From: Sitta carolinensis
Lineage: Eukaryota; Chordata; Aves; Passeriformes; Sittidae
Assembly: GCA_032173965.1 (NCBI GenBank)
Contig: JAVUNC010000004.1
Location: forward strand, 23,599,001-23,663,000
Direction of reading: 5' to 3'
Length of the DNA: 64,000 bases
Positions 7,018-63,626 of this stretch are shown here, piece after piece. Within the stretch, counting starts at the first letter, position 1. Each line of letters begins with the position of its first letter. The notes under the pieces are model-generated. The model did no database searches and was not told where the DNA came from. It was given only the letters and a program-made list of their open reading frames with translations. Both the position numbers and the translations under genes were made by a program.

Positions 7018-46394
<39,377 letters not shown>

Positions 46395-54300: not shown

Positions 54301-56218
54301 ACTGGCTTTACAGAATTTGGCAAGCTGTTTGAGAAGCTGTTGTTTAGAATTAGGGATCAGGGTCAACAAGGATGAGATGTTTTCTTAGAAGTTAAATGCT
54401 TCACTGTAACCATGTTTATTTTTAGAGTGAAATTGCTTTATGACTCCCTAATGAGGTTAAAAGTTGACAAGGATTTAAGCTGTGTCTTGAAATGCCCTGA
54501 ACATTGAGAAGATATCACATTAGCTATTTGTAAATACAACAGTCCAAACCAATAGCAAACAGTTTCACCTAGTATACTGTTTATCTGTCTGATTAGAATT
54601 GCTATTACAGAACCCTAGTTAATATTCACAGAAAGCAAAGTTTCTGTTTAAGGTTACCCTGTGTTTCCTTATTCAAGGTGAGTGTGAAGAAACATCAGGA
54701 GATATCCTGCCTTGCATTTTGAATTGTCAGGAGGAAAGGGAGCCACTGCTGTTTTGTGATTGTGCTGCTTTCCCATTGATCACCTAAATTGACAATCAAC
54801 TCCAGTGTCCTCAGCAATGTGGTTTAGAATAACCAGAAATATGGGCTATTTATCAGCAAATAGTGATACCACTGAGTGTCAGTGCAGTTCAGAATGTGGT
54901 TTAACAGTAAATTGCCTGCAGGAAAAGGCCAATCACACCTTCCTTGTATACTACAAATAATCCTGTGATGGGGTTATCATCTTTTCAAGAGTCATAGAAA
55001 GGTCTATGGTGTTTTCCAATGAGATGCTGGGATATTGTCCATTTCCATTTCCTAGTGTTTTCAGCCATCCTAAAACTGAAAACAAATGAAGAATCCCAAG
55101 GGGACGACCTTCTTTGGCAGCTGAAGATTAATCAGTGTGTCCAGCATGAGTAGTCTTGTCCTATTTCCATGTCTTTATTCACCTTAGATCTAATAGATAT
55201 GACATCTGGGATGCTGATAGCAGCAGCATATCTGTGTGTGTGTAAACATAACCATTCTGCATTTAAAAAGGGAAATGGAAACTTAAAGAACTGTTGAATC
55301 AAATACCTGTTAAATCATGTGAAAGTCACCACATGCTTCTGATTATTCCACCAAAGCTTGTTGAAAATTGTTTTTGTTTTTTCCATTGATATGTCTTATT
55401 TGTTTGGCATCAGGCTGCTTTTTGCCATTGGATTTCTATCAGTGTAAGAAAATGCAGAAGTGAGGTTTAAGGAAAGCTTCAAAGAAACATAAAGGTTACT
55501 TTGAAAAAATTACTTCTAAAATTCAGTGAAATTTAGGTACATAGGCAACCTTGAAAAAACTTGTATAAACTTCTGTATGAGAAAGGTGGAGTATTTTGGA
55601 TGCAAATAAGTAATGGCTATTTTGGGATAACTGAACTATAATCACTTTGTAAATCAGCAATCCTTAAAAGATTAATTAAGTGTTGTGCTTTCTATTGGTA
55701 CTATTCAACAAATTAAACATTTTATTTAATGAATAATGAAGAGGGGAGTAACTTAATAGTTTTTTTTAACTCAGGTCATGAGATGAGATGGTTACTGAAG
55801 GTCTAAGTACTCTTGTTTGTTTTCTTAATAGTACACTTTATTGAAGACTGTTGTCAATCATTAATTCTTCTTTATGATGCTGAAGGCAGGCTTGGTCCCA
55901 TGCTCTTGTAAGTCCTTAAAGTCTTCCACTATTTTCAGCAATCTTTGCTTGCTCTTTGTATCACCACTAATGCCCATTAACTGGCATAGTGTCTCTGGGA
56001 CTGAAGATTCTTCTAAAGGTAAAAAAGCAAAACACAGTATTTCCAAGAATCTAAAATACCTTGCAGAAATTGCCAAGCAGTTTCTGCACCTATATACCTC
56101 AATTGCTTTCTTAAAGTCTATTCATTGCCTTTTTTTTAATGTCCTCTTTCCCTCAGGACTCTATTAAGTGGCTTCCCAAGTCTCCTAAGCTGTACGTGGC
56201 CATAACTGGAGCTCCCAG

Positions 56219-56359
56219 GGCTCTCGCTGGGCCTCGTTGAAAGGAAGGGAAGGTTTTCGTGGTGGTAACCTGTACAAATTCAGCTCTGCTAATGGAAAAT
56301 TGAGAGAAGGCAGGATCAGTCCCGAGCAAGAAGCAGAGGAACTTGAGGATCCTGATGAT
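56219..56359 (+). CDS. Candidate linker exon upstream of the PDZ-like exons
   Basis: A strong donor (GATGAT|gtaagt) closes a 47-codon open stretch with coding-like composition: basic and Gly-rich first (SLKGREGFRGGNLYKF), acidic last (RISPEQEAEELEDPDD). It ends in phase 0, as the next candidate exon needs. The phase-0 acceptor at 56218 (gagctcccag) has a poor pyrimidine tract. A much better acceptor at 56156 opens a different frame that stops at the TGA near 56238. Either the exon is damaged or the start is misplaced. Confidence 0.3.
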
Positions 56360-58488: not shown

Positions 58489-58725
58489 GAACCTATTTCC
58501 AAGTTTTCCGGCAGCCTGTTTGATAGCAATGATAGCATGCAAGATCAAAGAAATCCCAGAACCACGCCTCAAGACAAGCACAAGTTGGCAATGAAAGGGA
58601 AGACTCTTGCAGGCTCTAATACCAAGGGGCAGCCAGCTGTGTCAGCAGCAAGCTGCTTCCCCGGCGACAGCGGCCGGATTGCCGAGGAGCTGCGGGTGCT
58701 GGATGTGCCACAGCCCCCGCTGAAG
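58489..58725 (+). CDS. Candidate exon: linker leading into a Scribble-type PDZ domain
   Basis: The acceptor ttatctttaaccctcag leads into 79 open phase-0 codons. The segment is polar and Ser/Lys-rich (EPISKFSGSLFDSNDSMQDQ near the start). Its last third is locally GC-rich and CpG-rich against an AT-rich background, and encodes GDSGRIAEELRVLDVPQPPL. It ends AAG|gtttgg, a mediocre donor. RIAEEL followed by a beta strand resembles the approach to Scribble PDZ1 (RIEEEELTLTI). No known gene explains it, so I infer a coding exon. Confidence 0.5.
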
Positions 58726-59292
58726 GTTTGGGACTGCTGCATAGGCTGGGCTGGGCTTGCTGCTGGGGGGCTCTGCATGTCTGTGGGGCAGCCCCTGTGT
58801 CTGTGAGGAACTCCTCTTGGGTGAGGCAGTTTGTAAAAGATGCAAAGAAGGGGGGACATTGCATGGCAGATGTCATGAGGCTTACCTTAAAGAGACTAAG
58901 CTGAGGGTTGTCATTGCTCCCCATGGCTTATGTGGGAAAAGAGTTCCCCATTCAAAAAAACCCAACAAAACCCACTTTCCTTGTAGCCATGCTCACTTTA
59001 TATATCCTGCTTTGGTGTTGTGAGGCCAAGTCAAAGGTACGTGTGGGTGCGCACCGAGCTGCGTCTTTGTTCAGTCCATGGTTTCAAAGCAGTGGTGACG
59101 AGTCTTGCGTGTGCCATTGTTGAATTGTAGCACTATTTTTCTCAGGGCTGGGCTCTCCTGGGGCATGTCTGCTGGGATGTTGCTGCATATCTGCTGGTGT
59201 TCAGAGTGGGAGGTAGATTTTCAATGCTCACACAGTTAATAGGCAATATTTTTGATTAATCAGGTTACTTATGCATTATAATTCTTTTCCAG

Positions 59293-59382
59293 GTAACCAT
59301 TACAGTGTGCAGTCAAATGCGGAGTCTTGGTATTAGCATTGCTGGTGGAAAGGGCTCATCTTCATGTAATGAAAGTGATGAG
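59293..59382 (+). CDS. Candidate exon: PDZ beta1-beta2 with the carboxylate-binding loop
   Basis: The acceptor attataattcttttccag precedes 30 open phase-0 codons: VTITVCSQMRSLGISIAGGK, then GSSSCNESDE. The strand, the SLGISI loop (GLGF position) and IAGGKGS match the start of Scribble PDZ1 (GLGISIAGGKGS) almost residue for residue. Erbin and Densin have GFSISGG at this point. The exon stops at the Asp-Glu preceding beta3. The donor GAG|gtgcat is weak. The domain call is firm; expression is unproven. Confidence 0.6.
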
Positions 59383-59889
59383 GTGCATTTCATTATTTGA
59401 AATTTATCTAGTGATCGTTAGGAATACACTGATGAGTAGTTCCTTGAATTTCGTTTTGTTGTTTGCTTTCTGAGATTGTCCTTCATGTAACATTTCCATC
59501 TTTGTAAAGCTAACAAGGGTAAACATAGGTAGCTTATTTCCCACAGTAGGATCTGGCATTAGATTTTGATGGGAAGCCTCAGAAGGGATGATTTGAGAGA
59601 GATACCCAAAAGTAAACCAGTGATTTTGCAAAAGCAACCTGATGGCTGGAACACTGTTGTCTAATTCTCATTTTCTGCCTCAATTTGGGGTCACTCCCTT
59701 GGCAGTCCACATGCCTCTCCAATCTCATTTGCTCATTCCCAGGAGCTGACTTGATTTGAGAGAAATATTTCACACATCTTCTCACATATTTATCTTTTAT
59801 ATAAATCCTTGTTTTCTGGTCTGTTCCCCATAGCACAGTGTAAACAATTACTGACGACTTTTCTTCATTGTTGTATGTCTCAGCCATGG

Positions 59890-59893
<4 letters not shown>

Positions 59894-59931
<38 letters not shown>
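59894..59931. repeat. Poly-T tract (38 T)
   Basis: The longest homopolymer in the window, about 150 bases upstream of the candidate PDZ beta3-beta4 exon. Assembly length is likely to be unreliable here. Confidence 0.97.
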
Positions 59932-59932
<1 letters not shown>

Positions 59933-60082
59933 TCTTGCTAATGTGCTAAGGCATTTAGATTTTAATTTTATGGAGACAACAGAACAATAAGACTTGAAAA
60001 TTAATTACTTCCCATTTGCTTTTTACATCTAAGAACAATGGGAGAAACTGTCACTTCTGAAACCTATGTTTTGTGTTACCAG

Positions 60083-60160
60083 GAGATCCTGATTGCACGG
60101 CTGCCAAAAGATGGTCCACCAGACTTGGCTGGGACACAAGCAGAAGACAGAGTGGCTGAG
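60083..60160 (+). CDS. Candidate exon: PDZ beta3-beta4
   Basis: The acceptor tttgtgttaccag precedes 26 open phase-0 codons, EILIARLPKDGPPDLAGTQA then EDRVAE. These align with the next part of Scribble PDZ1 (GIFISRVSEEGPAARAG, then GDKLLEV): ILIARL for IFISRV, DGPPDLAG for EGPAARAG, EDRVAE for GDKLLE. The donor is GAG|gtagat. The conserved Gly-Asp before beta4 is Glu-Asp here. Confidence 0.55.
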
Positions 60161-61886
60161 GTAGATGGGTTGTTTGTCATTGTGGAGCCTGTTCTTTTGT
60201 TGTTGTCTTTAAATCAAATAGTTTAGAGTTGGGGAACTTGAGATCCAGATCTAGGCTTGTCTTAGCTTTTTAAATACTTGCCATTATAAAGAAATGTTAA
60301 TAACATTAAATTGTTGTATTCCTTCTTATTATGTTCTGGTTGTCAGATCTTTATGTTCAAAGTGCTTAACTAAATATTATTCACTTAAATGAATGATTTA
60401 CAAAGGAAAATAATGGTCTTAGTAAGCAGTTATGTAAGCATAAATGCAGTTGTGTTTGATCCAAGAAGCTTTCTTGTGACATGGTATTAGATTTACTAGA
60501 TGAGTTCATTGCAGTTGCAACAAAGAAATATAAACTAGATGAGCTCGTTTCCCCAAGGTAATGTTTGGTGGGAAGAGAACAGCTCCAAAGAACTCCCCGA
60601 TGGAGGCTTGCAGTGCCAAGTGATAAATGTGTCTCTCGGGCTGTTCCACCTCAAGCAGAAGTCACAGTCTTGAGCTTCAGAATTTCCCAAGAACAATGGG
60701 AAAAAAATGGTTACATACAGTTTTGTGTTACATACCTTTGATGTACTGTTTGTTTTCTACCTGCTGAGAAGGGTTGAGTAGGAAGAGAACCTCTACAAAA
60801 TTACTTTGAGGTGAAACTGGTTCATATTTCCTTCAGCTCTTGTTCTCTTAAACTGTCATTTATACTTGGTTAATAGATTAATAGTTTTTACTCCAGCATG
60901 GTCCATGTTGAATTAAGGTGGGATAAAGCAAGCAATATTGTATGTCTGTTTGATTGTCAGGAATAATGATACAACCTGTATCAGCCAAAGACTTTAGTGA
61001 TAAATTAATTTACTAATTTTGTAAAACTATGCTATGGAATTATTAATAGAGGGTGGTGTTCCATAATATGTAAATATTGTGTTAGTTTGACAGTTGTTAA
61101 AAGGTTAATTGTATATAAAAATCTGTATTATTTTACATTTTTTTCTTTTATGAAAGGTATTGTAACAAATGGAAGAGAATATAAATAATTCTCTACATAT
61201 TTCACGTTATCAGATCATTGTGGAAAAAAGAAACCCAGGATTTTTACTTGCTGTACTTTTACCTTCTGAGCAGAGTTTCTGGTCAAGTTAGGTATCTTAA
61301 AAATCAACCCTATTGCTCAGGTTCCTCCATGAGGCTATAATTAATTATTTATTTTGGGGACTGTATGGAATGTACTGGGTGTTATTGTCTGTTCACTTAA
61401 TCAACAGTTAAACAAGTGAAAAAGAAGAAATTTCTGTTCCATCCTGTTCTGCTCTGCTCTTATTGTACAAATAGTTAGGATTTCTCCATCTCCCACAAGA
61501 TGGCAGAATCATTCATCTGTTTAAAGAATATAGAAAACAACTCTCTGCTTTTTGTGTGTGTATGTGAGACGAGAAGGACTTAATGAGGTGTGCTGTAGAA
61601 ATCCTACTGTCTTGACCACAGGACTAATCTGTGTACAAATATCAAGCGTTTTTCTCTTGACACTATGTGTTACTACTTCTTATTCTTGAACTGATAATTT
61701 CAACAGCTCAAACATAAAATTTACCAAAAACGTGAAACAGCAAGAATTGCAATTTTATTTGCTTTTATTGTACAACCACATGTAACAATAGGGCCAGGTG
61801 TTTGTATACTAACTTGAGAGGGAGGGAACTCCTCTTCTTAAACAGTATTCAGAATAAAACCATATTTCTGGTGTTTTCTTTTAAAG

Positions 61887-61982
61887 GCAGCCTTTGTTTC
61901 AGAACCTGCTGCCCTTGATGCTGGTCCTACTGAAGCTTCCCCCAAAGGCAGCCCCTTCCGGACCATCAACCATGTCATAACA
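61887..61982 (+). CDS. Candidate exon: divergent C-terminal half of the PDZ-like domain
   Basis: The acceptor gtgttttcttttaaag and the strong donor ACA|gtaagt bracket 32 open phase-0 codons: AAFVSEPAALDAGPTEASPK, then GSPFRTINHVIT. In place of the expected helix alphaB (VNG...HEEAV...L) there is only a loose likeness (LDAGPTEA), so the peptide groove may be altered. HVIT could begin the last strand. A second acceptor at 61902 would change the frame. Confidence 0.4.
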
Positions 61983-63578
61983 GTAAGTAGCATGGCCCCA
62001 GTAAATAAGTCACTCTTACCTAAGAAATTTGTGTTGTCTGTCATTAATCCTAGTGAAGACTGCCACAGAACTCAACACATGCCAAAGATCAGGGATCCTA
62101 CCAAGCATTTACGTGGCTGTCACTGCAGCTGGGACGTGGCTTCTGGAGGAGCTCAGCTCCTGGGTGAGCACCTGCATAGCAGAGCAGAGCTTTTGAAGCA
62201 CTCTGGTTTGGGGCCTTTAGGGTGGTGTCCATTCCCCCTAGTTTGAGTCATTATTCTGTTGTGTGGACTCTGTCTCTAGCTAATTGAAAGAGCAGCATTT
62301 TCAGGGTCCTTCTTTTAGGAGGGAGAGCTGCTACCTTGAGGTGACCATTTTCATCTTTTGACTGGAGGGGGAACTTGTGCCACAGGCTAAGCATGGCTGT
62401 ATTTTAGGTGACTGGTGAGAGAAACCTCCTGCAAGTGTCACAGAAGGCAACAGCTAAGCTTCCAGGGTGGCTTTTAGAAATCCACTTTTTTGAACTTCTC
62501 TAGCAAGTTCAACTCTCTGAAGACCTACACTAATCTTGGGCATTTGTGTGCACAAATGAAACTATGGCTTTACTAGGAAGATATAACAAGGTCAAGGTAT
62601 CTGAATAATTAAGGTCAAAAAGCATCTTACTTTGTTAGTTGACTGAAAAAGTCAGAAAATAAGTCATGCAGCTATTTTTCTATGGTTTTCTCTGTTAATC
62701 ACTGTTTGGCAAGTGTTGAGCTACAGTTTTTGTCCATGAGATAGACTAAGAAAGGTGTTCACTTCTATTAATTGCTTAAAGAAACTTTTTTTGAGGCCTC
62801 TGGCCTCCAACATCATCTTATGAAACATTTAGACCAGTTTTATTTTCCAGCTTAAAACAATTTCATTGATTTGTTTTGAGGTTTTTTGCTCCAGTTTTAC
62901 CTGCTAGCTGTTTCTTACAGTCTTTATCAACATTGCAGAAGTACGAGACTTCCTGTTAGAGGAACCACTGTTGAAAGGGTTTATTCATATGTTGGTGATG
63001 GCCTGGATCTGTTACAGTAGTATATGACTTTTAGTATTTTCATCCAAAAAGAAGAAATTACTGTATTTTTATGGTGTATGTCTCCCTTTAAAGTTCTTCA
63101 GGTGTAGTGGGGAGAGAAGGCAGATTAGACTGAGGTATTTAACTTAGAGCAGAGTACTCAGAGGGAGGCAATTGGCTGAATATGTTCTGAGTGGAAAAAG
63201 TAGCCAATGTGCAAGTCCTTTTCTGAAGAAACATTTGTATTTCTAGTTTTGTTTCTTTCTTGAAATCAAAATCTTTGTGCTATAGCAAATGATATATATT
63301 ATTGCCTGTAACCCGGAGCAGCATTCATCAATTTTAGGGATTATGGACTTGTGGGGAGTATCCTGATGACTTGGGACTGCTCAATTTCTCATCTGTTCTC
63401 ACTTTGAGTCCCTCTTATTCCTCAATATCTTACTATCTAGAAAATGTTTAGAGCCTGGCTTCTCATGGAGGACTTGCTTTGCATGTTCAGATAAGCAGGT
63501 GGCAGTAGGACCTTAATGCAGAATCTTCTTCTGTGCTAGGAATATAGGAAGGTTCATTTCCTTTGTGTTACTAATCAG

Positions 63579-63626
63579 GTTTCAATAGAAGATGGTTGTG
63601 TCTACATCAAGGGTTGGAAGGATTAA
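63579..63626 (+). CDS. Candidate terminal exon closing the PDZ-like chain
   Basis: The acceptor ctttgtgttactaatcag leads in phase 0 to VSIEDGCVYIKGWKD and TAA. Joined to the preceding exon it gives HVITVSIEDGCVYIKG, a plausible final beta strand. No AATAAA is visible before the window ends. It is short, so confidence rests on frame continuity with the four preceding segments. Confidence 0.3.
   Translation, partial: VSIEDGCVYIKGWKD

Follow-up and report, generated by a model that had tools for sequence, protein, structure and literature searches.

A Scribble-type PDZ1 block behind LRRC1 in Sitta carolinensis: a predicted optional tail of LANO and a possible link to MLIP

Why should PDZ-like exons stand behind a gene that is known for lacking a PDZ domain? 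LRRC1, whose product is LANO, is presented in the part of a 2025 article available to us as the sole member of the LAP family without a PDZ and as a partner of MAGUK proteins (PMC12731447). The window analyzed here, a stretch of 64,000 nucleotides from Sitta carolinensis (contig JAVUNC010000004.1, positions 23,599,001 to 23,663,000 of the forward strand), carries the leucine-rich repeat (LRR) exons of LRRC1, and downstream of them a preliminary description had traced five plus-strand segments, here called A to E, that would encode a Scribble-type PDZ-like domain. We consider it very probable, judging from the sequence and from gene models of relatives, that exons A to D, together with one exon upstream of them (A0), make up the PDZ1 block that survives from a Scribble-type gene with LRRC1 as its LRR half, and that splicing adds them as an optional tail. 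The block is laid out as follows:

56157-56359, plus strand: exon A0 (DSIKWLPKSPKLY...EELEDPDD), from tblastn and the sequence
58489..58725, plus strand: exon A, linker (EPISKFSGSLFD...), from the sequence and tblastn
59293..59382, plus strand: exon B, PDZ1 beta1, carboxylate-binding loop and beta2 (SLGISIAGGKGS)
60083..60160, plus strand: exon C, PDZ1 beta3-alphaA-beta4, ending ...DRVAE
60161..60169, plus strand: donor GTAGATGGG after exon C, from the sequence and the continuation in shark, ray, herring and SCRIB
61887..61982, plus strand: exon D, linker, ending NHVIT, from the sequence and tblastn
63579..63626, plus strand: segment proposed as exon E, unsupported as a conserved coding exon

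The strands in exons B and C are named by analogy with PDZ domains. As the preliminary description had reported, each of the five segments A to E follows an AG and holds a whole number of codons, and together they read in one open frame to a TAA; segments A to D each stand directly 5′ of a GT. Joined, they give 182 residues, whose best match in the Protein Data Bank (PDB; phmmer) is SCRIB PDZ1 and not an unrelated PDZ gene (E = 4.2e-9). This match runs over residues 74-140, which correspond essentially to exons B and C. Of the 20 PDB matches obtained with the joined sequence, none is a chain named ERBIN or LRRC7. The placement of a Scribble-PDZ1-type piece behind LRRC1 is borne out both by this match and by the LRRC1 models of relatives. 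Using the window's LRRC1 plus the chain as query and scoring on the chain alone, we retrieved proteins of about 330-1050 residues, among which those with the chain formed 38 clusters (27 from birds, 3 from turtles, 4 from lizards, 3 from sharks and 1 from herring). Many of the 38 are named LRRC1 isoforms, and none comes from a mammal or amphibian. Exons A to D match annotated LRRC1/MLIP exons of relatives, in whose models the last LRRC1 exon may end at NKNE and be followed by the DSIKWLPKSPKLY...EELEDPD exon and then by A, B, C and D. Within the retrieved set, which was chosen for carrying the chain and excludes the ordinary short LRRC1 forms, GLDSNKNE is always continued by DS[ILV]K or NSSK, the start of exon A0, and the LRR is joined to exon A or B in 25 of the 157 non-SCRIB proteins. 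Four members of the chain as first proposed, A to D, were recovered in this comparison, while A0 had been missed and segment E found no support. After the end of exon D, 20 of 31 proteins continue as IPRII (a terminal exon, IPRIILT...), 5 continue into MLIP and 6 into other sequence. Exon E was rejected as the true end, SIED following exon D only in the zebra finch model P0002, which diverges right after, and the remainder of exon E occurring in 0 of the 157 proteins. A tblastn search of the 64-kb window found no further alphaB exon, PDZ2-4, IPRIILT terminal exon or MLIP, and no convincing PDZ2-4 similarity beyond that of exon B itself. A run of 38 T lies between exons B and C (59894-59931).

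How the block would be attached to LRRC1 is suggested by the upstream part of the window, which holds the following features:

7057..44406, plus strand: LRRC1 LRR exons, from tblastn with human LRRC1, edges approximate
46236..46394, plus strand: last LRRC1 exon with the ordinary LANO C-terminus ...IDRVTTSV and stop, from tblastn
46355..46356, plus strand: internal phase-0 donor AACGAG/GTCAAT in the last LRRC1 exon, from the sequence and relatives' proteins

The LRR exons match human LRRC1 at 77-94% identity per exon (tblastn, approximate positions 7057-7155, 10307-10402, 24469-24528, 26101-26163, 26903-26977, 28787-28945, 31362-31481, 32458-32544, 41546-41662, 42573-42749 and 44269-44406), with the first LRRC1 codons lying upstream of the window; the exon at 44269-44406 is matched by proteins of relatives as well. 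A LAP-type LRR array is thereby present in the window, and two long forms, P0004 and P0036, have LRR matches in Pfam. Going by the models of relatives, the last LRRC1 exon would end at the internal donor and lead through A0-A-B-C-D either to the IPRIILTRPSTSDEDT terminal exon or to MLIP exons. Use of this donor would remove 12 residues and the stop from the last exon. Several donors come out as weak when scored with a position weight matrix of splice-site base frequencies, and this one is weak too (89th percentile among the GT sites of the window). The choice of donor would drop the TTSV end of LANO, an end shaped like a class I PDZ ligand, and add a PDZ in sharks and a half-PDZ in birds, turtles and lizards. 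One gene would choose, if these models are right, between being a PDZ ligand and being a PDZ carrier.

What the window encodes is half a PDZ: against Pfam PDZ the chain scores 14.7 bits, where the cut-off is 23.2, and aligns to positions 10-50 of the 81 in the profile. The complete PDZ of a LAP protein is lacking in the window chain and also in the owl long form P0004 (21.9 bits), whereas the sharks P0036 (65.5 bits) and P0037 (68.3 bits) and the herring P0038 (70.7 bits) are complete at the same cut-off. A continuation of the type VNG...HHEAV is present in the shark LRRC1 isoforms P0035 and P0036, in the basking-shark PDZ-MLIP model P0037, in manta ray P0165 and in herring P0038 (for P0035 and P0165 the PDZ is known from precomputed labels, for the other three from our own scan). 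The HHEAV pattern occurs in 6 of the 157 proteins, all of them elasmobranch or herring, and in 0 sauropsids. Past exon C the window reads GTA GAT GGG, in frame VDG where sharks and SCRIB have VNG, and the hoatzin model P0033 continues there as VDGLFVDVEH. Neither between exons C and D nor anywhere else in the window did alphaB similarity rise above chance, and the window lacks the alphaB helix of a canonical peptide-binding PDZ; the alphaB that had been called poor is absent from sauropsid models rather than poor, and it is present in sharks and herring. The suggestion that HVITVSI forms the last PDZ strand had to be dropped, as shark P0036 has its counterpart, VNHAMPMPRIIL, well past the end of a PDZ that is already complete. 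The valine codon of the conserved EVNG may have supplied a GT that became a donor and truncated the PDZ to a half; lacking alphaB-beta6, this half would not be expected to bind C-terminal peptides in the usual manner.

The complete domains point to the same relative as the half. The PDZ of shark, ray and herring is 60, 58 and 64% identical to SCRIB PDZ1, and the same PDZs are only 43-51% identical to two of the other three SCRIB PDZs, this comparison having covered the first, second and fourth. When the full shark PDZ was compared with the PDB, a multi-PDZ DLG4 chain came highest, with a score summed over three stretches, and the next 12 matches were SCRIB. Both the PDB search and the comparison of three SCRIB PDZs place the piece closest to SCRIB PDZ1, and the LRR of shark LRRC1 is itself 67% identical to SCRIB over 463 residues. 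Three PDB entries (8boj, 8buw and 8bv7) hold PDZ chains named Leucine-rich repeat-containing protein 1, which may be invertebrate scribble. Exon shuffling could in principle have brought a copy of SCRIB PDZ exons in between LRRC1 and MLIP, a reading that would suit the presence of one PDZ only, against four in SCRIB, and the lack of convincing PDZ2-4 similarity in the window. We regard it as very unlikely, for sharks and sauropsids keep the LRR-linker-PDZ1 order of SCRIB, and inheritance is simpler because LRRC1 is itself a SCRIB paralogue.

Is the inherited block still under constraint? Identities between pairs of relatives were as follows:

Ostrich-turtle: A0 54/66, A 56/75, B 29/30, C 19/26, D 19/32, LRR 388/412
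Ostrich-Anolis: A0 54/69, A 43/75, B 26/30, C 12/26, D 17/32, LRR 411/439
Wagtail-buzzard: A0 65/68, A 57/79, B 26/30, C 21/26, D 26/32, LRR 433/440

Exon B is 25/30 identical even between ostrich and shark, and at long distances its conservation is near that of the LRR. Because this exon is nearly frozen across sauropsids, its stretch probably keeps another role, for example a linear or strand-addition contact. Several observations weigh against a block that has been kept for use. The exon B core is missing in 12 of the 38 proteins, and the models of relatives are mostly automatic predictions, which may mask frameshifts. Within birds (wagtail-buzzard) exon B stands at 26/30 while the LRR stands at 433/440, and exon C has drifted in lizards (12/26, ostrich-Anolis). 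The window bird has a one-base deletion in A0 and 10 private changes in 234 columns. Structure prediction was uninformative, with a mean predicted local distance difference test (pLDDT) value of 46 for the crane half-PDZ; the full-PDZ shark control failed too, at 42, and neither was used. The missing exon B cores and the changes in the window bird, together with the several weak donors and the sauropsid models without alphaB-beta6, would also be expected if the chain were a dead relic of the ancestral gene and the database isoforms functionless read-through predictions. We hold this to be improbable: neutral exons should not remain open and alike for so long as exon B (29/30 in ostrich-turtle, 26/30 in ostrich-Anolis) and A0 (54/66 and 54/69) have done, and sharks possess the full PDZ. 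The argument of the preliminary description that open frames speak against neutral decay stands for the clade and is unclear for the window bird, given its A0 deletion and ten private changes.

In Sitta carolinensis, exon A0 is 203 nt long against the expected 204 nt (68 codons), with a one-base deletion near 56196, and tblastn breaks it into two frames (56136-56195 and 56198-56359). The deleted site corresponds to one residue in 16 of 16 relatives with the exon, in models that are automatic and may mask frameshifts. The ten private changes, at columns otherwise invariant, are the most of any of the 20 sequences compared (the others have 0-6) and include three glycines of the PDZ half. The excess has p = 0.006 against wagtail, 0.17 against zebra finch, 0.10 against crow and 5e-4 against six pooled passerines (Fisher), where the counts omit columns with fewer than 8 residues and the p values ignore phylogeny. 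Sequence quality of the window looks normal because its LRR exons show just 2 private changes in 378; in this control the Hirundo model has 16 in 364, probably a model error. Because of the one-base deletion and the excess of changes in the chain, the long LRRC1 form is probably decaying in the lineage of the window bird, unless the A0 deletion is an assembly error. Such an error, which would leave the long form intact, seems to us unlikely but well worth considering: a single base is concerned, exons A to D are open, a comparison of private changes with zebra finch alone (p 0.17) or with crow alone (p 0.10) is not significant, and the excess of such changes may partly reflect time on the branch of this bird. 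The deletion, however, lies outside any long homopolymer, and the chain of the bird carries the most private changes of the 20 sequences next to a normal LRR. The long LRRC1 of this bird is probably broken by the A0 deletion, and exons A to D may still form the 5′ part of MLIP transcripts.

The same exons lead in other species into MLIP, so that the comparison across taxa foreseen in the preliminary description gave a double answer: the chain was found in birds, turtles, lizards, sharks and herring, and its exons also belong to MLIP-type models. Nine such models contain chain or PDZ exons, six from birds (Athene, Morphnus, Ficedula, Sturnus, Chaetura and Opisthocomus) and three from elasmobranchs (Cetorhinus, Mobula and Scyliorhinus torazame), and the owl (Athene) model P0004 has LRR, half-PDZ and MLIP in one protein. 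The exons of MLIP proper (PF15274) were not found by tblastn in the 64-kb window and are joined to the chain in the models of other species. MLIP has been published as amniote-only, as far as the available parts of the literature say, and we found it in sharks, rays, chimaera, coelacanth, sturgeon, paddlefish, gar and teleosts (proteins P0159-P0188). The database names of the shark and eel MLIP proteins P0164 and P0251, mucin-5AC and mucin-2, are apparently wrong. On balance, we lean towards a second, ancestral Scribble gene that came apart into LRRC1 and MLIP, its LRR half having become LANO and its C-terminal half MLIP, with the PDZ1 block between them as shared optional exons. By the same joint reading, held with the same reserve, MLIP would be a detached polarity-scaffold tail and not an amniote invention.

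The sequence argument for a common origin comes from two short blocks that mammalian SCRIB tails share with MLIP, YRAFAAVPTS resembling YKAFAAIPTN and QQTKPGVIQP resembling QLTKPGVIRP. For MLIP, the 116 of 126 proteins that have the FTFVP start were kept and thinned to 17 with identities below 75%; the SCRIB side consisted of four mammalian tails, all with the TKPGVI stretch and chosen from 107, one of which served in the shuffles. The test was not blind, as the blocks had been noticed beforehand in a profile comparison. Among 354 ungapped 10-column MLIP windows, the two blocks reached E values of about 3e-7 and 1e-6 per window, both significant after correction for the 354 windows, and the best control values were 4e-3 for reversed tails and 4e-4 for the SCRIB middle region. 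In shuffles of one tail the best block was reached in 2 of 2000 and the second in 0 of 2000. With 14 columns, the SCRIB tail gave 5e-8, reversed tails 1e-3 and the middle region 1.7e-5. Of the comparisons made, this test was the one that supported the relation. The whole-MLIP profile was not significant against SCRIB tails (best sequence 7.0 bits, with shuffles reaching 6.0; best domain 5.8), hhalign of MLIP with the SCRIB tail gave a probability of 1.6%, and Pfam MLIP had no match in the two SCRIBs scanned.

The order of the motifs cuts both ways. YKAFAAIP comes first in all 106 of the 126 MLIP proteins that have both motifs. The TKPGVI stretch is found in 23 of 120 SCRIB proteins (21 under a stricter pattern), and some YRA copy precedes it in 19 of the 21; the best-matching copy, YRAFAAVPT, stands after TKPGVI in 4 of the 4 tails tested, 1 of which has no earlier copy. 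Mammalian SCRIB tails (P0039-P0158) have up to three copies of YRA[FL]AA[VL]P, and the TKPGVIQP stretch occurs in some isoforms only. It is quite possible, though we would not put it first, that MLIP is unrelated to the SCRIB tail and merely a neighbour of LRRC1, the shared motifs being convergent protein-binding motifs. The null results of the whole-length comparisons would fit, as would the restriction of the matches to two blocks of 10-14 residues in mammalian tails and the position of the best SCRIB copy, opposite to the MLIP order; this order and the 14-column control of the SCRIB middle region lowered our odds for a common origin. Against mere neighbourhood, YKAFAAIPT and TKPGVIRP are each significant after correction and rarely or never equalled in shuffles, an earlier YRALAAVP copy, where present, precedes TKPGVI as in MLIP (3 of 4 tails), and chain or PDZ exons lie within the nine bird and elasmobranch MLIP-type models.

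If the proposed history of LRRC1 and MLIP is true, the descriptions of LANO as a LAP protein without PDZ and of MLIP as an amniote orphan both fail: LANO has or had the Scribble PDZ1 and exchanges it by splicing for an end resembling a PDZ ligand, MLIP acquires an ancestry and a connection to the biology of the Scribble complex that can be tested, and the locus records a gene fission with the intermediate still readable. A nonsense variant of MLIP is reported, in the part of the source available, to cause myopathy (PMC9174206). The preliminary description had proposed either an undescribed long LRRC1 or the retained tail of an LRR-PDZ gene, and both fit, except that the long form is already known as predicted database isoforms; we found no paper in the open literature that describes it. 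Among the matches listed there, no title or abstract beginning mentioned an LRRC1 with a PDZ or a descent of MLIP from Scribble, and those in which LRRC1 and MLIP appear together belong, by title and abstract beginning, to livestock-genetics papers.

Compared with LRRC1/LANO as described in the sources available, the gene and the LRR exons are the same and the window keeps the ordinary TTSV stop, but the described protein has no PDZ, while the long form exchanges the TTSV end for a tail with the PDZ block. Muscular LMNA-interacting protein (MLIP, PF15274) meets this locus in the models of six birds and three elasmobranchs that include the chain or the shark PDZ exons. ERBIN and LRRC7 are LAP proteins with an LRR and a single PDZ, an architecture they share with the long form, whose PDZ instead matches SCRIB PDZ1. 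The likeness to SCRIB (LAP4) goes furthest, with a shared LRR N-terminus followed by a linker and then by a PDZ most like PDZ1, and with the YRAFAAVP and TKPGVI motifs in the SCRIB C-terminal tail; SCRIB has four complete PDZs, whereas the LRRC1 locus has one, which is complete in sharks and herring and cut to a half in sauropsids.

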